Part shown: piece after piece, positions 1,787 to 38,330 of the stretch
How the letters are laid out: every line of letters begins with the position of its first letter
Numbering within the stretch: position 1 is the stretch's first letter
Origin: Saksenaea vasiformis B4078
Lineage: Eukaryota; Mucoromycota; Mucoromycetes; Mucorales; Saksenaeaceae
Length of the DNA: 39,122 nucleotides
Direction of reading: 5' to 3'
Assembly (NCBI GenBank): GCA_000697055.1
Contig: JNDT01001745.1
Span: 1-39,122 of the forward strand
Program-made: the position numbers and the translations under genes
Notes under the pieces: model-generated
Told to the model about the DNA's origin: nothing
The model's database searches: none
The model's input: only the letters and a program-made list of their open reading frames with translations

Positions 1787-2378
1787 ATAATTGCTGAAGG
1801 AGTTGGTCTTGATCGAATATCTCTTCCGTCAAAACGTGAAGATTGAGCTATTGTTGTGGTTGCAAGGCATTCACGAAGTACAAGGACTGGAGGAAGTCTT
1901 TGAGGATCTTTGGTTGCAGTATTGACCGGTCAAAGAGAAACGATCAAAGCTGTAGATAGTACATAGATAGAGCGTTATTATATAGCTTCGAATAAGATGA
2001 TCGCCTCTACTCTAGGATGATGTTTCGCCTTCCGGACAAGAAGTTAATTAAAAGCAGGGTAAAAGCTCCAATCGCAAAGGGGAAACCTTCTAGAATCTAA
2101 TACATCTTGCCATCCAAAAATCTCATATTATCCACACCATTTGTTATGCTTTCACGGTGAGTGTTATAGTAACGGCTTTACTGCATTTTTGCTATTATTC
2201 TGCGCTAACTTCAAGATTTCTGGCGCCAATTCCTGGCAAACTTTACGTCGGGTGTGGTCTATTTTTCGTACTGAAGCCTTGCATCTTGCGCGGGAAGTAG
2301 ATCTTCATGCATCGATTCGAAGTGCATTTCGTTGATGTATTTTTGGTTCCAGTGTCCACTTTCAACACATGATTTAGG
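1787..2378. other. Intergenic DNA, nothing recognised
   Basis: AT-rich DNA between the LINE insertion and the dispersed repeat. It has no open frame with recognisable motifs, no tRNA-like fold and no strong repeat. Confidence 0.4.
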
Positions 2379-3516: not shown

Positions 3517-5253
3517 TTAGAAATGTCTACTTACAAATCCAAAGATTACTTGGTCCACGGACCGACACTGAACAAATACTATAGCATTATTCTCTGTTTC
3601 TGGTAAAAAGGGTTGACTTTTGCGGTTTTCCGGCAACCGTTCCGGGTCATTCTCGTTGCCTATTCTTTCAGAGATTCCTCGAATATCGCGCGTATGCAGT
3701 TTTCGAGAAAACTCACCCCGTGGTCCCCATTCGCATCGGTACCACCTCGTCCAGCCTCCGATTTCGTGTTCATTAATTGATCCATAGTACTTCTTTTTCC
3801 GCTCCAAGATCCGTTTAGTTTTGTCTGTCTGCGTCAGTCGCATCACAGCATGCTGTTTATATTGTATATGGAGCCAACGTAGTCGTGTGTCATGCATATT
3901 GATCCAATGTTGTTGATTCGTGCTGCAATCGTACTGGCAATGAACTTCTGATAGACGAGGACAACACCGAGAAAGATATGGAAATAGCTCGTCCTGAATG
4001 TCTCCTCCGCTTATCCGTAACTTCTCTAGATCGCAGGGCTTTCCCATGACCTGATTAACATTGATACCTATCACCTTGCCGCTAACGTGCAGCACTTTAA
4101 GATGTTTGATGTAATTCAAGATGACATCCACCTTCAATTCTATGTTCTCGCACTGCAGCCAGAGATCTCTCAAAGCCATGCAAGGGATCAGTGCGTCTAA
4201 CAACCCTGTGATGGATGATTCGTCTCGCGATGTAAAATAAACCTTTGAGAGAGTTTGGTGAAATCCACTGATAGCAATCAAGCAGGCAGGAATAGTCCAA
4301 AACCGTAAATCTAATTCTGTTAAGGGTGTCCCGGTCTGTTGGAAGGTTCGTATTGCGTCTGGATAAGGAGAGGAGCTTTCGCCAAAGGGTTTGAAAACAC
4401 GAAATATTTTGAGGTGACGACTCGACCTTGCCAATGCCAAAAGGTCTGCTCGCGCTTCATCGTCATGTACCATAGAGTCCCACCACAAAGCGAGTTCTTC
4501 AAGATACGGATATTTTCGTGCACAATAAGGATACAGATTACCGTCCGACATATCCAATTTCAGGGAGCGTATTGTAGTTGAGGGCTGGATGTATTCTGGC
4601 ATATATTTGCTTGCTGTGAGAAGGGACAGGCTCAAGTGCTGCAGTTCAGGCAGCCTTGCATGAATAGCTTCGATGTCGAACGATGATATCCTTGAACTAT
4701 CGCTCGCCATTTCTTCTCCGTTCCCAATTATTTTTAGTGAAACGATGCGGGGTAGTTCTTTCAACAAGTCAAGCCATCCCGAATAAATATCAATGTGGAT
4801 ATTCAAATGTGTAATGCATTGACGGAAATGATGCAACGCAAAATCCGGCGCTCCGGGTAAGTAGAGCTCGGGAACGTTGCTCAGATATTTCCAGTCCGCT
4901 AGTTTGCTGGAAAATCGTAATCTCCAGAAATATTTGCAGTGAAATGCCACCAAATAAGGACAAAGACGAGGGAGAGACTCAAATTGGGTGCGGTGGAAGC
5001 CCACATCTTCGTGGAAATGAAGTTTACGGATGAGGTGCCCTACAGGATCTGTCGTTTCCGTGCGACAAAGCGTTTCATAAAACAACTTGAACTGACGTCG
5101 TGTTTGTATATATATGTCGGAATACAACAATGGTTTGAACACAGCTTTCCAACGACGACAGACGTATATGGCGGTGCACAGATCTCGTCGTGGCACATGC
5201 ACGATGATCGCTGTCAACATTTCACTTGGTATGGTGTTGTCCATTTCGCCCAT
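3517..5253 (-). CDS. F-box protein with leucine-rich-like repeats
   Basis: 578 residues, uninterrupted. An F-box at about residues 7-48 (IPSEMLTAIIVHVPRRDL, CRRWKAVFKPLLY) would recruit Skp1 in an SCF E3 ubiquitin ligase. The rest is a series of irregular leucine-rich segments (for example LPELQHLSLSLL, LEKLRISGG, CPRLSEVHCQY), typical of fungal F-box/LRR proteins whose repeats hold the substrate. The target cannot be inferred. The start is the first Met before the F-box. Near the C-terminus a perfect GTAAGT donor (3534 downward) lies in frame before the stop, with an AG at 3488-3489. The true end may therefore differ by a few residues. Such F-box genes are strongly expanded in Mucoromycota. 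It has no co-directional partner nearby. Confidence 0.8.
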   Translation of the reverse strand: MGEMDNTIPSEMLTAIIVHVPRRDLCTAIYVCRRWKAVFKPLLYSDIYIQTRRQFKLFYETLCRTETTDPVGHLIRKLHFHEDVGFHRTQFESLPRLCPYLVAFHCKYFWRLRFSSKLADWKYLSNVPELYLPGAPDFALHHFRQCITHLNIHIDIYSGWLDLLKELPRIVSLKIIGNGEEMASDSSRISSFDIEAIHARLPELQHLSLSLLTASKYMPEYIQPSTTIRSLKLDMSDGNLYPYCARKYPYLEELALWWDSMVHDDEARADLLALARSSRHLKIFRVFKPFGESSSPYPDAIRTFQQTGTPLTELDLRFWTIPACLIAISGFHQTLSKVYFTSRDESSITGLLDALIPCMALRDLWLQCENIELKVDVILNYIKHLKVLHVSGKVIGINVNQVMGKPCDLEKLRISGGDIQDELFPYLSRCCPRLSEVHCQYDCSTNQQHWINMHDTRLRWLHIQYKQHAVMRLTQTDKTKRILERKKKYYGSINEHEIGGWTRWYRCEWGPRGEFSRKLHTRDIRGISERIGNENDPERLPENRKSQPFLPETENNAIVFVQCRSVDQVIFGFVSRHF

Positions 5254-19461: not shown

Positions 19462-21865
19462 ATGGCAACGTCTCCAAGGATAATTTGCAGAGTGAGAGCC
19501 TTGTACTCGTTCTCGTCCGACGAGCAATCCTCATTGAACTTCGAGAAAGACGAGTATATCGACGTGCTCAACCAGTTAGACTCTGGCTGGTGGGATGGCT
19601 GGTAAATTAGACATGACGAAGAAGAAAAAGAAGTAATAAATTGTGTTCTCTTTTCTTTTTTCTTTTTTTTTGTCTCAGGTGCAATGGCACGCGAGGTTGG
19701 TTTCCTAGCAACTATGTCGAAATCGTCAGTGTCAACCCCGCCATGGTCGATAGCGTAAGGAGCAACCGTATCAATGATGAGAGACGTTATGTAGTCGATC
19801 AACAAACCAATGAGCAGAAATCACCGTTACTCGAAAGTCCCCGTTTTCGGCCCCATTCGCTAACCCCACCGGCAGCGACGATGACGAACAACCAGCTTGG
19901 CTGGAGCAACAGCAGCCGCAGTCGCTCTAATAGTAGCAACACAAGTTCGGAAAACGGTAGTTTCCATACGCCAGCAGCTGGATGGACAAAAAATCGTTTG
20001 CCGTACGATCTTCAACCGGGTGATGAGGATGACTCTGAATATGACGACGAAAACGAAACGAACCATCCTCATCGTCCCCGTCGTCCCCGTCGTGCTATGC
20101 CAGCCAACGGTTCGATCGACTCGGAAGATGAAGATCACTTCTCCAATGGACCACATCAGCGCCGACTAAGTATCGATTCTCTCCCAGCAAGCATCGAAGC
20201 AACCCCGACGGAGGATCCAAACCTTGTGAGTGAGAAGATACGGACGAGAAACATGCTCATGCAGATCTGACTAAAACGTTTGGTTTTCGTCTAGGTCATG
20301 TCGCAGTGGGTGGAGAGAACCACACCTCAGGGCAGAATCTATTACTGTAATCTGACAACACAAGAAACAACATGGGACTATAATGAAATCGATCAGATCA
20401 CTGGAAGACTGGTAAATTTTCAGCCAGAGAAATGATTTGCGATCGTAACCACACTTTTCTTTTTCAGCGAAATAACAAACGAGAGGAAAATATACGTCAA
20501 AGTACACACATGTATGATGACAGGAATACCCCTTCATCTATCTTAGAAGTGGAATCGTTGACATGGCAGAAATTATCAACGGATATCGCTACAGCCGTTC
20601 ATCAGTTGAATACAGCAGCGCAACGTGGACAGCATGAAAAATGTGGAACCAGTATTCTTGCTGTTGTGGATACCATTCGATTGATGCTCTATTCCTCACG
20701 ATCAATGGACAGAGAGGCGGCGCATATGCAAGATCGTGAATTGCGAGATCCTCATCGAGCTGTGATGGCATCGTTATCGAAACTGGTGCTATCCGTAAAA
20801 ATGGCGACCGAATCTGGCCATTCGTCAGGGTCGGCAGAGACTCTTTATAAGGTTCAGCGTGACGCAGCGGATTTGCTGACAGCCGTTCGTAACTTTGTTA
20901 CAGTATGCCAAAACAAGCAGATTGATGTCGAATCCGTCTGTCCAAAGTTGGTAGGACGTGATGGGCACGTTCATCCTACGCCATCCGAAAAGCGAGAGAG
21001 CCTTGATCAGACCACGACGTTGGTGCACAAGGCAAAATATCCGCTCAATCAAGATCTGATCGTTAGTTTACAGACACATGCCAACCAAATTTACGGTTCA
21101 ACCGAAGCCTTATCGCGCGCAACTAATTTTATCCTCTCAATTCGGGAAAATACCAACGAACTAAAAGCGCGGTCCAATGTAGTGATCCTGTTTCGCAACC
21201 TCTCGATGCAGATTGGACAGTACCTAAGCATTTTAGGAGATATGGATTTAACGAACGTTGATAACTCTCAGATTCCCTCGTTGTCAGATTACCGCGTGAA
21301 CAAACAGCAACTGTACAATGCAATTGGATCTCTGTTTGGTGCTGTGCAAGGTTTCACAGACGCAGGTGTTGATACTGGAAACAGCGTGACGGAGATTGAA
21401 GATGCGTTGCATTTGGTTGAAGATACCATTGAGAATATCTTGACGAGTGTTGATCAGATGGTCAGTCAGCGACGCATGTGGCTCATGCGTGGAGGAGTAG
21501 GAGCGGATGATGATCGCATTGGCGATGGAGGACCGCTGACACCAGAGACGCCTTACGGCTCTGAAGAGAGTAAATGGGAAGCAGGAGCAGGGGAAGGTTT
21601 GGAGACTGGAGCAGGGACAGATGTGGAGCAGACCCCATTGGTGTCACGAGGATATCATCGTCATCGACCATCTATCGGTAGAGGAGATAAGGCTCGTAAA
21701 CGGCAATTGAGCAACAAGACGTTGGATGGACATGCAGATGCACTCTGGTTCCTTGGTTACGATTACAATGAAGGTGACATTGTGTTTACTACAGATGGTA
21801 GTGTAAAAGGGGGTACGCTCCCTGCTCTTGTGGAACGACTTACACTTCATGATACACTTGGTAAG

Positions 21866-21897
<32 letters not shown>

Positions 21898-31800: not shown

Positions 31801-32801
31801 CTTCTACCATTTCTTAATTCTTACCAATCCATAAATTACGTGTGATGTATTCGGATTGTGCTCTGGTCGCGTTCTCTGTACACGAATATATTCCATAATC
31901 TTGTGTTCGCCTTCGCCAGGAACAGTAGCATCGGATAGAATCACCTTACACTAGAGTTTCCACACCAATATGTCAGTGTAGTCGCTTAAACTCAATCCCT
32001 AATACTTGCGTTTTTCCACAGCGGATCCGTATTCTGCTTAGCCGCAATGTGATAGCGAAGACAGGTTGCTAAATGCTCCATAAATGGAGTGCCGGGTGTA
32101 ATACAATTTGAATCGAAATGTGCCTTCTCTTCGGGCAACTGATGTGCTTGGCCAATCGCTACATAAGACACATTATCAACACTAGTCTCCCTTTGCGATG
32201 ATTACGCACCTTCCAATTCGCGCTTAACCTTATCTGTTGCTTCACGCTCCAACTCTGCCAATTGGGATGCCCGAAAACGACGTGAGCGTTGCTGATTCAT
32301 TTTTGCTCGAGGAGCAACACCATCTAATGAACATTTAGATAATATCAAAAGTGAGCAAATATAAAGAGCCCTACCGATTGCTAAGTACATCAACTTTCGT
32401 GGCCGGATCATGTCGACGATTCGGTCAAGATAGGCAAAAATTTCAATCATCATGTCATCCTCTGTTGCTGGCGCAGGCTACATGGCCGGTATTTGTACAT
32501 CCGTTAACAAATGCGACAATGCCATGATCGGACGTACCTTATTTTCAGGATGGCAACATGGATGAATAATGCCATTCATGTCCAAATACAGGTTATCAAA
32601 TTCAACACCATTGGGATTCGGTTTGGTAGTATCGACGGGGATCGTCGTTCCATTGACTGTTCTTGGTTGATCTTCCACAACTTGGCTAACAACTTTAGGA
32701 AACTTATCCGAAAGCCATCTGTACACAAGAATTGAGTCAATTTTTTTTATCAAAACCGTATCATTGTATCGGCCCTACCGGAAAAAGGCCGGTACTCCCA
32801 T
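28868..32801 (-). CDS. RAT1: Nuclear 5'-3' exoribonuclease RAT1/XRN2 (Dhp1)
   Basis: Degrades 5'-monophosphate RNA in the nucleus: torpedo termination of RNA polymerase II and rRNA/snoRNA trimming. Seventeen minus exons: 32801-32779, 32718-32538, 32477-32375, 32323-32210, 32158-32010, 31950-31825, 31769-31628, 31587-31265, 31220-31142, 31088-30578, 30528-30448, 30405-30342, 30288-30140, 30084-29966, 29911-29587, 29538-29338, 29294-28868 (1038 residues). Motifs: [78 protein letters not shown], a zinc knuckle [14 protein letters not shown] (~265-278, present in RAT1 and not XRN1), [50 protein letters not shown]. The last ~140 residues are an RGG/GGY-rich tail. Exon 5 ends at a GC donor. Exon 8's start and the 42-bp intron after 30448 are uncertain by a few residues. 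Confidence 0.95.
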
Positions 32802-33689
32802 GAGTAAGTAGTTAAAAGGATCTGACGAAAGAGTAGCCACACATCGAGTCCGTGAAGGTTAATTTGTAAGTCACGATTTTTCGCGCTGCTTGAACCTGCT
32901 TTTGCATCAGCCAATCCGTTTAGACGTTCACCGTCGTGTCTCACCACGTCTCTTTGCTTCTCAATTCTGTCCCACCGGTATTGAACTCGCGAGTTGAAAT
33001 ACTGAAGGTATTTGGAACGCTCTAATGTTAAACCATTCTAAATCCTTGGTATCTCGAATTGGGGTCTCATAAACTTGAGAAGCGCCAATCGCACGGCCTA
33101 TGTTATATAGGTTAAGTGGGCCAGTAGAGGGATAGGATCCTCTTTGTTTCATTCAATTCACTACTGGGAAATGGAATTCTGTAAATATCCCCTCCACATT
33201 GGAACGATATTTGGATCCCCCGAACTTCTGCAAATATCGCTTTTCCTACATGAACTTCTGGAAGTCTCCGAAAACCATCCGGGACATATCTTCATGCAAT
33301 CCCTCCACCAATAATGGTGCACGAGATACAACGTTATAACAGTCTCTTGTTCATCAGAACATAATGCGATACACGCAATTGGTTGCGGGTTATATTCGTT
33401 TTTGAAGTCATATGTCTGCTGATATACACGCAGCCACTGGAAACATATCAGTGAGATAAAATCAAAATATTTATATCCAGGAAGAATATGTCTGATATAT
33501 CAGCAGACGCCAAAATATCCCCTGTAATCATATGAACGTTCAGTACGTAACGTCGCTGCCGGTTAATTCTTTACTATTTATTTCCAGGAGAGATAATAGT
33601 AAGCTGGCATACGGAGTTACAAGAAAGGATGTGCGATTTATTTTTCCAAATTGGCTAACCCCATGACAGTAGCTTCCTGCCATTGATAC
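32802..33689. other. RAT1 upstream region and gene-free DNA
   Basis: No gene recognised. Short words recur (tctgtaaatatcccct near 33180, ctgcaaatatcg near 33228, caaaatatcccctg near 33510). A 13-bp inverted repeat is listed separately. Confidence 0.4.
33414..33508. repeat. 13-bp perfect inverted repeat
   Basis: gtctgctgatata at 33414-33426 is the exact reverse complement of tatatcagcagac at 33496-33508, with a 69-bp loop. It could be the ends of a tiny MITE-like element or a hairpin. No flanking target duplication was found. Confidence 0.7.
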
Positions 33690-34330
33690 GTCTATGCCCT
33701 TTGTAGAATCCTTCTTCGGATACTTTGTAAGTTTCTTTGCGCAAGGGACAGAAGAAGATTTTTTTTCGATCTTTCGAATTGAACTTGGCGAGAATGCCTA
33801 TTCAGCGCCAAGAAAAAGCAAAGCCAACGTAGAAGAGGGAAAGTCCATTTCTCCTGAATTTTGTAGGGAAATTCGTACTATGAAGACCTACCAGCGACTT
33901 GCAGACATCGAGCGAAGAAGTTTCCCACAGGAGCTGGCTTCGAAGCTGCGGTTCACCTTTACGGACACTGGCGACCTTGCAATTCACTTTTCAAAGGTCA
34001 CGCTCGCAGGGCCACCAAACGGCTTCGGACAGAACAGAAACGAAAAGGAATCGTAGTTATGGTGCATGGATTCAACACTAGTAAAACATGCCATTGGTAT
34101 TTGAAGCCGCTGTAACTGCAAAGATATTGGACAGAGACAGACGCGTTAGACGATCCACAGGAGCCCTTTGCTGTGTAAATCCGAGTTGCGCCAGCTTCGT
34201 CAAACGGTTGTAACACGATGAATCGGGATGTGAATGCCGCTAAAACTATCGCATTGAAGAGCTCCTCGGTGATACTCTCTCCCGACGGAAATTCCCTCCC
34301 GCCTTTTAGTCCTCAGCATACAAGCACTTA
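33690..34330 (+). pseudogene. Decayed Fanzor/TnpB-like nuclease C-terminus
   Basis: Three reading frames in order reconstruct the C-terminal layout of TnpB-family proteins. Frame one (~33948-34105) has HWRPCNSLFKGHARRATKRL, then KGIVVMVHGFNTSKTC; the F-x-TSK-x-C element is the start of the TnpB zinc ribbon. Frame two (~34148-34205) has LCCVNPSCASFVKRL, a second Cys pair (C-x4-C). Frame three (~34215-34330) has TMNRDVNAAKTIAL, the NRDxNAA motif holding the last RuvC Asp, followed by LSPDGNSLPPF. The second Cys of the first pair appears replaced by Tyr. At least two frameshifts and one stop kill the gene. Fanzors are eukaryotic RNA-guided TnpB homologues carried by transposons. The open frame 33694-34056 may hold more upstream sequence, but I recognise nothing in it. 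No transposon ends were found. Confidence 0.65.
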
Positions 34331-34910
34331 CCAGCTTGATCCGCTTTTTGTTTGTCAACCGACCTCGGTTCGACAAGTGCAGGGCCTGTGAAAGGCAATT
34401 ACCGAGTAAGTGGGGTTCATACTACTGTGTCGGATATTCAATTTTGGCGTAGATAGCCCGTCGGTATGGGACCCTACCGTGATGTCAGAAGTATGCTATT
34501 CTAAAAAAAAGTCTTACATCCATCAAGTGTCCAATTTGTGCTAAGAAAATATTGAACCTCCGTTATTATTTCATCACTTTTTCATCAGATATCAATTAAT
34601 TATGTGAACTTGGACCTGCAATTGATACAGAGTTTATTATAGTAGCATAAAATAACGGCCACAATCCATGGCCAGTAAATGGAATAATCATAACGTTGGA
34701 TGAACGTAGAAATACATACTTGCAATCACACAGTTCGTTTGGAAGTAACACCAGATAATCGGGAAAATCCTGTAACCTGGACAAACTCCCCTGAGAAATG
34801 ATTTTTGGTTGAACGGAAAGTTGGCAGATGGAAAATCATCTCCCGATCTGAAAGATGGTAAGTAAATGTGTAATATCTGATTATCTCTCCCACCTTTATT
34901 CTCTCTCTCA
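34331..34910. other. Gene-free DNA between Fanzor-like and LINE remnants
   Basis: AT-rich, no recognised coding. It may contain further eroded parts of either neighbouring mobile element. Confidence 0.35.
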
Positions 34911-34914
34911 AAGT

Positions 34915-35345
34915 TCATATGCGCTATCCATCCAAGAAGCTACATATTTCCATGATCGTTTTTAGCAACATCTTCAACCAAAGGCCTCGACTAACTTCAC
35001 TGCATATTTCCTAGGTCCAACGCAATATTCTCTCGTCACTGCGCATCGGTTTGCCTCAATCCATCATTGACTCTCCATAATTCATCAATTACCTTTGATC
35101 AAAGATAAATCATTGCAGCCATCCTTGATTCAACTAAAAATGACATTTTCCACGTCATCGTAATCTATGCTACTAGCAGATAAACAAAAATCCCCAGACT
35201 TCTACATCCACATTCTGTCACTGATCCATTGTCTGCCAGCTTCTAATGGCTAGATAATTCTTGGGCGATTTCAACGCCAATTTATACCAGTCAATCCTTG
35301 ACCGAATCAGATCTTAGGTCGACTTCCTCTGCAACGCTGTCAAAC
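34915..35345 (+). pseudogene. Eroded LINE endonuclease (APE-type) remnant
   Basis: Frame-hopping translation matches the endonuclease of the intact neighbour step by step. SIQEATYFHDRF corresponds to GIQELANLF (catalytic Glu). Then IFSRHCASVCLNPSLTLHNS corresponds to IFAQHCALICLNPYLSLRDS, TFDQR to TIDQR, VIVIYATSR to RIRNIYAPAQ, DFYIHIL to AFYDQLY, ILGDFNANLY to IMGDFNMQLH, and VDFLCNA to IDWLNTA. Several stops and indels interrupt it. It is an older, more decayed LINE copy lying directly upstream of the next one. Confidence 0.75.
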
Positions 35346-35552
35346 TTGAATCATACGACAGAGGGACATTCAGATGTCATGGATAGCGAAGCCTCTGCGG
35401 AAGAAAATACAGTAATGTTAGTGAAGAAAAACACTATCCAGTCTACAGTTAGAGAGACGTTGAGTTGGACGGCAGCCCAACCACGCGGCCAAGGTCAACC
35501 AATGTTAAATAGTATGCGTCACCACCACCACTATGGCGATACGCCACAATGA
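35298..35552 (+). CDS. Possible C-terminal end of LINE ORF1, low confidence
   Basis: 84 codons, Ser/Thr/Glu-rich then His-rich (MRHHHHYGDTPQ), with no zinc knuckle. Its TGA stop overlaps the ATG of the endonuclease frame in an ATGA arrangement (35549-35552), which is what one expects of a LINE that translates ORF2 by termination-reinitiation. Its first ~15 codons overlap the older endonuclease remnant, so the true start is elsewhere or it is spurious. Confidence 0.35.
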   Translation: MTESDLRSTSSATLSNLNHTTEGHSDVMDSEASAEENTVMLVKKNTIQSTVRETLSWTAAQPRGQGQPMLNSMRHHHHYGDTPQ

Positions 35553-36790
35553 TCAGAAAACACACCCGCATTGCTACTTTAAATGCTCGTAGCATTTTTA
35601 AAGTGGCCAATCCACAAACACAATCACAGTTCATGCATTATCTTCGTTCTACTTCGCTCGGGGTGGATGTTCTTGGTATCCAAGAGCTGGCAAATCTTTT
35701 TCAACGCTCCATACATCTTACACCAGCCGATATCACTCTTTTACATCGAATGTTTCCCTGCAAAGACCCTATCTTTGCTCAGCACTGTGCATTGATCTGT
35801 CTCAATCCCTATCTTTCTCTCCGCGACTCTCTGACTACTATCGATCAGAGATGTATTGTAGCTACTGTCTATAATACCGACAATCAGCCCCTATGCCGAA
35901 TCAGGAACATTTATGCTCCAGCTCAACGTTCTCAACGAACAGCCTTTTATGACCAACTCTACGAGCTCATACATACACTCCCAATATCAGAGCAATGGAT
36001 CATCATGGGAGATTTCAATATGCAACTTCACAATCCTCAACCAGCTCGCATCAAACCATGGATCGACTGGCTCAACACTGCATGCGATGACAAATCACCC
36101 AAGTCTGCTTCCTCTAGGCCACTCCCTACTTACTTTCACCACAACCAGCGAACAGCCATCGACTATATTTTCGGTCACCACAGGCTCTCGCCACGTATGG
36201 TAAATCTGCAACAACATTTTCTTCCATCTGCATGGACAGATCATACTCTTCTTACGGTGGACCTCGCCCAGACTCAGTCTGACCTTGGCCCAGGCGTATG
36301 GCGTTTTAACCCTAGCTTGTTATCTGATGCATCTTTCTGCGAACTCTTGACTATTAGCATGGATAGCTTTTTCCAGAATAGCCAAGATAGACCTGACACA
36401 CCACAAATCCAATGGGATCAACCCAAAGAGGTCATCAAATGGGTGGCCATTCTTTTTGCACAGCGAAAGCAGAAAAATCGGAAGGAAACCGTCAGAGACT
36501 TGCAGCAACAACGTCAAGTAGCGCTAGCACGAACAGTGGATGATCACACAACAGCACAGCATAGCGAAAAACTGCGCCGCATCGAACTACAGCTGAATGA
36601 ACAGATGCAGGACGAAACGCAACAATTATCAATTATTATTGCGAACAGCCCACACGGTGGCATGAAAAAGGAGAGCGCAGCAACAAGTAGTTTTTTCGGA
36701 TACTCAAACAACGCCAGAGACAACAGACCATTTCTACAATACATAACCCAGATACCGGCCATACAGCTGTCACAATGGGCGAGATTTTAG
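35549..36790 (+). CDS. LINE ORF2 N-terminal part: APE-type endonuclease
   Basis: A 413-codon open frame. Endonuclease/exonuclease/phosphatase motifs are all present: IATLNARS (Asn), GIQELA (Glu), NIYAPAQRS (Tyr), IIMGDFNM (Asp/Asn), TAIDYIFG and WTDHTLL (final Asp-His). This domain nicks target DNA to prime reverse transcription. A linker follows (WDQPKEVIKWVAILFAQRKQ and a Gln-rich coiled segment). After residue ~382 the sequence leaves the conserved frame at a T6 run (36691-36696); the expected continuation FRILKQRQRQQTI is in the next frame and leads into the RT. The last ~30 residues as read are therefore out of frame. Confidence 0.85.
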   Translation: MIRKHTRIATLNARSIFKVANPQTQSQFMHYLRSTSLGVDVLGIQELANLFQRSIHLTPADITLLHRMFPCKDPIFAQHCALICLNPYLSLRDSLTTIDQRCIVATVYNTDNQPLCRIRNIYAPAQRSQRTAFYDQLYELIHTLPISEQWIIMGDFNMQLHNPQPARIKPWIDWLNTACDDKSPKSASSRPLPTYFHHNQRTAIDYIFGHHRLSPRMVNLQQHFLPSAWTDHTLLTVDLAQTQSDLGPGVWRFNPSLLSDASFCELLTISMDSFFQNSQDRPDTPQIQWDQPKEVIKWVAILFAQRKQKNRKETVRDLQQQRQVALARTVDDHTTAQHSEKLRRIELQLNEQMQDETQQLSIIIANSPHGGMKKESAATSSFFGYSNNARDNRPFLQYITQIPAIQLSQWARF

Positions 36791-38330
36791 CCAAGGCACG
36801 AAATTTTTATGAAAAGCTGTATGCTACAGAAGATATCAACCAAAGGGCAGTACAGAGCCTATTAGATGCAATTCCAATAGACGCCCGTCTAGACCAGCGC
36901 TCACGACATGATCTAATCCGGGATCCATCAATGGATGATCTGCTAAGTATTATTACGCATGCTCCCTCAAGCAAAAGTCCAGGATTAGACGGTCTCCCCT
37001 TTGAATTACACAAACATTTGGTCCATAGTCAAAGCAATATCAAGAACTGATGCTCAAGGTCGTTCAGGATGCTCTCCAAGACAAGTTCCTGGTCTCATGG
37101 ATGCAAACCAGAATGGTGCTTCTATTGAAAAAAGGCGACCCGCAACTGCTCTCGAATTGGAGACCGCTCTCCATGATCAACACAGATGCCAAAATCTTTA
37201 CTAAACTGCTTGCCAATCGGCTCAACCAAGTATTACCGCAACTGATCAACCCGTATCATACTGGGATCCTTTGGAACCGCCTCATCAGTGACGATAGATG
37301 GACAACGCAAACACTGATGGCCCATTTCCAGTCCCACATGCCAGACCTTCCTGCAGTAGGGGTCCTTTTTGATCAAGAAAAGGCTTATGATCAGGTTCAT
37401 CCTGATTATCTACGGCAGGTGTTAAATTGCTTCGGTATACCAGCCCAATTGGTTGACGCCATCAGTTCCTTATCCTTTGGGACCGATATCTCCATCTCAA
37501 TTAATGGATGGCTAGCCCCCACCCTACCACAAAAGCAGGAGCTTCGGCAAGGTGATCCTCTATCACCGCTTTTGTTCAACTTGTGTTTGAACCAATGTTA
37601 CGGTCGATCCTGGCTTCCACGACAGTACATGGAGTATCATTTCCTGGAAGCTGTAGTGATACCAGCGTCAAATACCTAGCCTATGCAGACGATCTCTTAG
37701 TGTTCCTTCGAAGCACTAGTGAATGGCAACCGCTCCTGGATCTTTTCTCCACATATGGGGCAGCTTCAAACGCGCGACTCAACTTGCAGAAGACGTCGGT
37801 TTTCTCCCTTGCTGGTACAACCCACAGTGAATGGATACAGCTGCTAGAGTCGTTCAACATTCCTTGGCATGACAGCCGGTGCAATGAATCTCTGATATAC
37901 TTAGGATATCCCGTACATTCTTCGAGGACACAACTACAGCAGTTTCTAGATGGTATTTATGCAAAAATCGCTCGCCATGTGGATATAATGAAACAGCGCC
38001 ATTTATCGATTCAAGGCAAGGGGATCATTGCTAACTCAGTCTGTCGCGGCTTTGGCATGTCTTACGAGTGGTAGTAGTAGCCCCAGGGGAATGGCTGACA
38101 CGATGTCAACGCCTTATTCGCTCGTTTCTGGTACCTTTCTTTCCCGCCTCATCATGGTCACGCTTATGTCAGAGTAAAAAGACAGGCGGTGTGGGACTTG
38201 TGAATATCCACCAACAACACCTGGCGCTCCATTCGATCTATTTGCAACGGCTGGTTCGAGACAATCACAACGAACGCATTCTTTTTATTAATCCGGTTAT
38301 CCGTCCTCTTCTAAGTTTCTACTGAGGCCG
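36697..38330 (+). pseudogene. LINE ORF2 reverse transcriptase, frameshifted
   Basis: Segments in order: ILAKARNFYEKLYATEDI and SKSPGLDGLPFELHKHL (36775-37020); a frameshift near 37025-37040; LLLKKGDPQLLSNWRPLSMI, AKIFTKLLANRLNQVLPQL, VLFDQEKAYDQVHPDYL (catalytic Asp), ELRQGDPLSPLLFNL (37050-37580); a one-base shift near 37583; FEPMLRSIL then KYLAYADDLLVFL (YADD catalytic pair) to 38040; a shift near 38050; then WLTRCQRLIRSFLVPF and CQSKKTGGVGLVNIHQQHLA to 38325. All catalytic residues are present, and the breaks are single-base indels, so this is a recently dead copy or one carrying sequencing errors. Confidence 0.88.

Follow-up and report, generated by a model that had tools for sequence, protein, structure and literature searches.

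A broken Fanzor remnant in Saksenaea vasiformis and the predicted guide-RNA scaffold at the right end of its family

Introduction

Fanzors are eukaryotic relatives of TnpB and Cas12. A sequence-only reading of a 39,122-nucleotide stretch of the Saksenaea vasiformis genome (hereafter the window; contig C348 of an assembly of 38.7 Mb in 666 contigs) had proposed the fossil of a nuclease of this kind, and the locus raises the question of what the fossil derives from, how much of it is left, and what its relatives carry at their ends. Fanzor1 genes were reported in 2013 from Rhizopus, Phycomyces and Mucor, together with MCi-2 and its partial Crypton transposase (PMC3627910); the Crypton association of Fanzor1 is mentioned in PMC10711439, and ghost loci and the overlap of guide RNA and gene have already been described (PMC10432273), as far as the available parts of these papers go. 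The fossil itself is ordinary; what is new is the scaffold covariation and the intron-like stretch in its family.

Results and discussion

Broken 3' part of a Fanzor gene in the window

A profile was built from five paralogue pieces, with the window excluded, and 1,621 six-frame pieces of the window were scored. Four collinear matches were obtained (Table 1), lying, from piece 1 to piece 4, in the open stretches 33673-34053, 33867-34112, 34085-34210 and 34179-34388; the next best piece scored 7.8 bits, and the best across 20 dinucleotide shuffles of the window 8.5 bits. The window and its nearest relative, L010, showed 81% DNA identity over 33864-34455 (594 aligned columns). These results confirmed that the window carries a broken Fanzor 3' end. 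The motifs FNTSK-T-C, C-x4-C (CVNPSC) and NRDVNAA were found on the forward strand in the order that had been claimed. They had been assigned to three consecutive frames; the frame changes are real, but FNTSK and NRDVNAA share one frame and C-x4-C lies in another, and a further piece, REIRTMKTYQRL, lies upstream in the third frame. The span had been given as 33690..34330 and was corrected to 33864-34467, since the paralogue proteins matched nothing at 33690-33863 and the homology of the family extended to 34467, where it stopped. Over 32400-33880, there was one other genome match (88% over 32931-33141).

The term fossil proved apt. Besides the frame changes, piece 2 terminates at a stop (34113) and has Gly in place of the alternative Glu and Tyr in place of the second zinc Cys, and the RuvC-I part is absent from the window copy, so that the full Fanzor motif set is no longer present. 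The window copy is a remnant and not a working Fanzor. The probability that chance motifs or an unrelated zinc-ribbon gene explain these motifs is negligible. The Pfam zinc-ribbon model by itself remained under its cut-off of 26.3 bits on the separate window pieces (14.8 and 12.5 bits), as such an explanation would have it, but piece 2 reached 112.8 bits against at most 8.5 bits in the 20 shuffles, and 81% DNA identity to L010 is maintained over the 594 columns. A chance match was rejected on the comparison of the profile scores with those of the shuffles. Rfam gave a single chance-level match over 33500-35200 (E 0.9), and no 7-12-base match from the first base of the right flank, as a target duplication by the remnant would leave, was found within 33301-33900.

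Table 1. Features of the Fanzor remnant, its right end and its flank (window coordinates)
Feature	Position	Strand	Evidence
Entire remnant (Fanzor gene 3' part, as far as the element's right end)	33864..34467	+	81% DNA identity to L010; right end by copy alignment
Protein piece 1, frame a, REIRTMKTYQRLADIERRSFPQELA	33865..33960	+	Profile 102-133, 39.0 bits; tblastn 33865-33960
Protein piece 2, frame b, GHWRPCNSLFKGHARR ... FNTSKTCHWY	33912..34112	+	Profile 121-187, 112.8 bits
Protein piece 3, frame c, CCVNPSC	34130..34204	+	Profile 194-218, 31.7 bits
Protein piece 4, back in frame b, with NRDVNAA (RuvC-III) and the C-terminal tail	34200..34385	+	Profile 217-278, 74.0 bits
Predicted guide-RNA scaffold, 19 pairs	34340..34467	+	Covariance model, 115.8 bits (window among its 17 rows)
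Paired segments of the scaffold	34349-34351/34379-34381, 34354-34360/34367-34374, 34384-34387/34393-34396, 34400-34404/34462-34466
Intron-like GTAAGT ... GTAG, 47 nt, in the closing-stem loop	34406..34452	+	GT..AG signals
GGTAT, counterpart of the 5-bp terminal repeat, also 3' arm of the closing stem	34463..34467	+	C641 and C539
Host flank, would-be guide if the scaffold is transcribed	34468..34482	+	Analogy with the Spizellomyces Fanzor

A Fanzor family in the genome

The genome search for paralogues proposed earlier was productive: with all 123 candidates scored, a 131-residue piece of L010 had matches at E 1e-3 in 104 places, a number that exceeds the number of copies because several rows can be one copy and the window alone gives three. 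With 150 of 388 candidates scored, PF07282, the TnpB/Cas12f zinc ribbon, was found at 137 or more places; those listed belong to several TnpB-like lineages and do not include the window. Ten family loci were read. The nuclease-core exon is open in four of them (L069, L070, L074 and, to the contig end, L071), and frame breaks lie upstream in L070; a copy intact over the whole gene was established in none of the ten. L069, L070 and L074 carry D-155/156-TS-x2-C4-x11-RD (D-TS gap of 155 in L070 and L069 and 156 in L074), in agreement with the published Fanzor motif, D-X(125,275)-[TS][TS]-X2-C4 zinc finger-X(5,50)-RD (PMC3627910). DPG in RuvC-I and an alternative glutamate are Fanzor features according to the available part of PMC10711439. 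DPG was read in L070 and L074 and DPR, a point against intactness, in L069 and L071, the fifth row of the alignment being without that part, and the alternative glutamate stands six residues before the zinc finger in all five paralogue rows. Both paralogue exons tested with PF07282 scored above its cut-off (32.4 and 35.9 bits against 26.3). The motifs thus show the less damaged relatives to encode a predicted RuvC nuclease core with a zinc ribbon, and the TnpB/Fanzor-like identity suggested for the window was supported by the PF07282 matches of the two exons and the motif spacing of the three paralogues.

In profile searches of the kind that had been proposed as a check, the paralogue exons exceeded the PF07282 cut-off and the window pieces fell under it. 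The NCBIfam TnpB model stayed far below its cut-off of 100 bits on three paralogue exons (22.2 bits, 9.3 bits and no match). In the PDB, one paralogue had the Spizellomyces Fanzor as its sole match up to E 10 (E 1.6), and of the two matches of the profile this Fanzor was the better (E 0.25), values that prove nothing alone; a mucoralean Fanzor for which a structure exists (PMC11423790) was unmatched in both comparisons. None of 641 candidates from a large protein database matched residues 557-810 of the joined L071 exons at E 1e-3. The family is called putatively Fanzor1-type, as against Fanzor2; its elements have direct repeats and a Crypton-type fragment. No serine recombinase was found in the element pieces scanned.

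Other TnpB-like lineages occur in the same genome (L001, L002 and L004; L003 and L005-L008). The ribbon of L004 has Cas12m and the TnpB-like protein L79 as its closest PDB entries, and L003 weakly matched TnpB and Cas12f chains.

Element ends and a Crypton-type protein

Two copies were followed to both ends, giving elements of 6,597 bp (C641) and 6,485 bp (C539). Their right ends read CAGTAT and GGGTAT, respectively, and the end readings indicate that each element has five identical bases at both ends (AGTAT in C641 and GGTAT in C539, the two elements with both ends read), the two repeats differing in the first base. The left end of C641, AGTATCATCGGTCG, is common to C635 and C194, and matches on C437, C639 and C140 start 64-135 bp further in. 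In the case of C539, matches on C624, C423 and C255 start at query base 1000, where C539 reads GGTAT; the repeat at this left end was read on C539 only. The right end is sharp in 17 aligned copies. The comparison of paralogue flanks that had been advised thus delivered both ends of two elements and a right end common to many copies. Since the window's own left end is missing, its repeat is deduced from C641 and C539.

On the opposite strand of the C641 element, the end of a protein matched NDC10_II (33.3 bits, 235-316 of 317) and GCR1_C (41.7 bits, profile 1-43 of 80). GCR1_C was found in 28 genome places, including left arms on C641, C639, C437, C194, C140 and C635; in the case of C539, the sole match to the recombinase fragment sits outside the element. 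The elements yielded no catalytic core of a recombinase, and may therefore be moved in trans. When pieces of six loci were searched for the right end in inverted form, the matches were weak and none was recognisable as an element end, and a 500-base stretch around the left end of C641 held no target duplication of five or more bases from the first positions of the right flank.

A second frame of the C641 element (L077 343-945, minus strand; 201 residues compared, without a Pfam match) shares 48% identity (191 residues) with a frame of the C539 element, and is a putative conserved accessory gene. At L054 on contig C22, two right ends from oppositely oriented copies, 1946-2063 (+) and 2124-2248 (-), face each other 60 bp apart. 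On contig C24, a DDE_3 (Tc1/mariner-type) transposase frame (L069 4311-5270) lies ca. 500 nt beyond the end of the Fanzor copy.

The right end as a predicted guide-RNA scaffold

Duplicate loci and L071, which is cut by the contig end, were left out of the right-end alignment beforehand. Eighteen of its 27 rows had a readable end, nine (L056, L057, L058, L063, L064, L066, L067, L068 and the + copy of L050) having been dropped before the count, and 17 remained after the removal of L069, whose last bases differ. RNAalifold gave -17.0 for the 17 copies against a mean of -0.5 (sd 0.8) over 100 column shuffles. In the last ca. 120 nt, 96.9% of 323 cells were paired, as compared to 22-35% with slid partners. 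Cells with double changes numbered 19 against 5.8 (sd 1.8) expected, and the covariation score was 0.214 against 0.111; neither value was reached in 500 shuffles, and as the copies are related these counts are non-independent. The number of pairs with double changes (5 vs 3.7) and of pair types (12 vs 12.1) showed no excess over the shuffles.

Because the structure had been derived from the 17 rows, 12 further copies were tested. In these copies outside the model, 181 of 201 cells (90%) were paired, with 26-38% for slid partners; they are relatives, and six of them have a closing stem that is broken or falls mostly or entirely into gaps. Of 50 sources searched with the covariance model, 13 contained matches, 14 in all. 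Two of these matches (the window and a copy that also appears as L050) came from the training set, and the count of right ends, covering 50 sources, is a lower bound. No match was obtained in eight loci of other TnpB-like lineages or in five protein-fetched loci, and one was obtained in 25 repeat-fetched loci. The latter, L022 1082-1190 (-) on contig C390, scored 53.0 bits without a match to the L010 protein piece, and may be a locus where a guide scaffold stands without its gene.

In the closing stem, the last bases of the element, including the terminal repeat, pair with bases ca. 60 nt upstream. The partners co-vary (UACUG/CAGUA, UACCG/CGGUA and UAUCC/GGGUA), with one broken pair each in L010 and L055. 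Stem 2 starts at codon position 1 in L069, L072 and L050 and at position 2 in L043, L055, L070 and L074, and it is kept across both codon phases though the tail peptides differ. It is very unlikely that the 3' fold is conserved merely as protein-coding sequence: stems 1 and 2 do overlap C-terminal codons in open copies, but stem 2 occupies codon position 1 or 2 depending on the copy, the tail peptides are unlike, and the closing stem draws on bases past the stop, at the very end of the element. The occurrence of stem 2 in two codon phases, together with a closing stem that changes with its partner, points to conservation as RNA. We take the right ca. 120 nt to be a guide-RNA scaffold overlapping the last codons, the fold being supported by covariation, and transcription and binding being presumed.

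An intron-like stretch in the closing-stem loop

All 17 copies have an AG at a distance of 15 nt from the element's end, the search for it having been anchored near that end. The donor is GTAAGT or GTAAGC in 15 of the 17, GCAAGT in L010 and GTAGGT in L059, and the stretch from donor to AG is 38-52 nt long. If it is spliced, the frame would stop in the last exon in four copies, across the junction in seven and before the donor in four; L010 and the window have lost the frame and stand outside these counts. Since the unspliced frame of open copies also stops within a few codons, the stops do not decide for splicing. The stretch may be spliced out.

It is rather unlikely that the GT..AG stretch, instead of being an intron, belongs to the transposon end or the RNA fold. 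The TTAC before the donor can pair with GTAA in all copies, the copies are homologous, so that 17 of 17 is a non-independent count from an anchored search, and the stops are uninformative, all of which would agree with a structural role. Column identity, by contrast, averages 92% over the donor and 98% over the acceptor but 68% between them, the AG follows a pyrimidine-rich stretch in L045 and L052, and L071 has another GTAAGT..TTTAG of ca. 50 nt before its DPG exon; these observations favour an intron.

The predicted scaffold of the window after the loss of the protein

The window keeps all 19 scaffold pairs, as do 11 of the 16 other copies, while L010 keeps 14. Given random placement of the window's five paired-column differences, so many kept pairs would be expected with P 0.0009. 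Changes specific to the branch of the window fell in 0 of 37 paired columns and 16 of 385 coding columns (P 0.38), which gives no support for selection on the window scaffold since the protein was lost. The compensatory changes are common to the window and L010, and may predate that loss. The Spizellomyces Fanzor has a guide of 14-15 nt (PMC10432273, in its available part), and the corresponding bases of the window are listed in Table 1; the 18-base sequence starting at 34468 has a single occurrence in the assembly when up to two mismatches are allowed.

These data bear on whether the locus is a living ghost, with a dead protein and a right end whose transcripts would supply a guide to Fanzors encoded at other loci. 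The 19 of 19 pairs against 14 of 19 in L010, with P 0.0009, and the functioning of ghost scaffolds in the Spizellomyces system (available text of PMC10432273) speak for such a locus. The changes shared with L010, perhaps older than the loss of the protein, the comparison of paired with coding columns on the window's own branch (0/37 vs 16/385, P 0.38), a flank without a second match in the assembly, and the merely putative activity of the copies with an open nuclease core, speak against it. On balance, a living ghost locus is improbable.

The proposed picture and known systems

Taken as a whole, the window very probably holds a Fanzor gene, putatively Fanzor1-type and from a Crypton-like family, of which the truncated and inactivated 3' end is left, with a right end that bears the predicted scaffold. 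The earlier expectation of intact relatives with guide-RNA-bearing ends was borne out in that paralogues with less damage were found, together with the ends of elements and a structured 3' region that is conserved, but whole-gene intactness was established for none. In the proposed picture, the right ca. 120 nt of the element would give a folded guide-RNA scaffold that overlaps the last codons, and host DNA past the last base would serve as the guide, as in known Fanzors. The 5-bp terminal repeat, seen as sequence inside the closing stem, may be used by a tyrosine recombinase, and cutting of the vacated site would favour retention of the element, as described for TnpB systems. In the window the protein is dead, and the predicted scaffold still satisfies the 19 pairs of the model. 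These results suggest that the last bases of the element are both recombination repeat and part of a folded guide RNA. A more specific proposal, namely a Crypton-borne Fanzor1 family with a spliceosomal intron in the closing-stem loop, a repeat co-changing with its opposite strand, splicing that parts mRNA from guide or shortens the loop and leaves the scaffold unharmed, and dead copies each with a private guide, is put forward tentatively, as possible but short of probable.

The following comparisons refer to the available parts of the papers cited. Like MCi-2 of Mucor circinelloides, which was compared by description only (PMC3627910), the family has a putative Fanzor1 gene near the 3' end, variable 5' parts, a partial Crypton transposase in one subfamily and no terminal inverted repeats; unlike MCi-2, with its target duplications of 11-12 bp, it has 5-bp terminal direct repeats, and no long duplication was found at C641. 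A right-end guide RNA, host flank as guide and protein-less guide-RNA loci, here predicted, are shared with Spizellomyces Spu-1 (PMC10432273), which differs in its 30-nt inverted repeats, whereas a direct repeat and an intron-like stretch lie in the scaffold here. The guide RNAs of IS607 and of insect-virus Fanzor1 (PMC10711439) have transposase-imposed sequences inside the scaffold, as would be the case in this family, but here the sequence is an end direct repeat that changes together with the opposite strand of the closing stem. The GCR1_C domain and short terminal direct repeats recall CryptonF (6 bp in most fungal Cryptons; PMC3212892), from which the Fanzor element differs in yielding recombinase fragments only. 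IStrons likewise combine intron and transposon in one element (PMC4227781), but there bacterial group I introns are joined with insertion sequences, and here the signal is of spliceosomal type and in a eukaryote.

In the titles and abstract openings searched, from a literature with subscription journals mostly outside its scope, neither an intron in a Fanzor scaffold nor a recombination repeat covarying with the scaffold was reported. This large family, in which some copies are broken and others open, the ends can be read and the scaffold covaries, offers a test bed for the making of guide RNA, since the guide RNA here would overlap a gene, a recombination repeat and an intron-like stretch. 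If the proposal is true, it would add a further case of a recombination sequence built into a guide scaffold, a principle set out in the available part of PMC10711439.

Surroundings of the remnant

A dispersed repeat (34505-34688; 33 other listed places, 69-82% identity) starts 38 bp past the Fanzor remnant, and its other copies have ca. 60 bp more in common on the left. It matched neither the Fanzor family nor the non-LTR retrotransposon of the window. The repeat was rejected as a part of the element, as family homology ends at 34467 and the 33 listed places are mostly unrelated loci. Just downstream of the remnant, endonuclease/exonuclease and reverse transcriptase domains at 35549-37676 (+) mark a non-LTR retrotransposon. 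Elsewhere in the window, a 488-residue frame (20432-21895) matched DUF7783 with 117.7 bits and DUF7784 more weakly, and an F-box-like protein of 578 residues is encoded at 3517-5253 (-).
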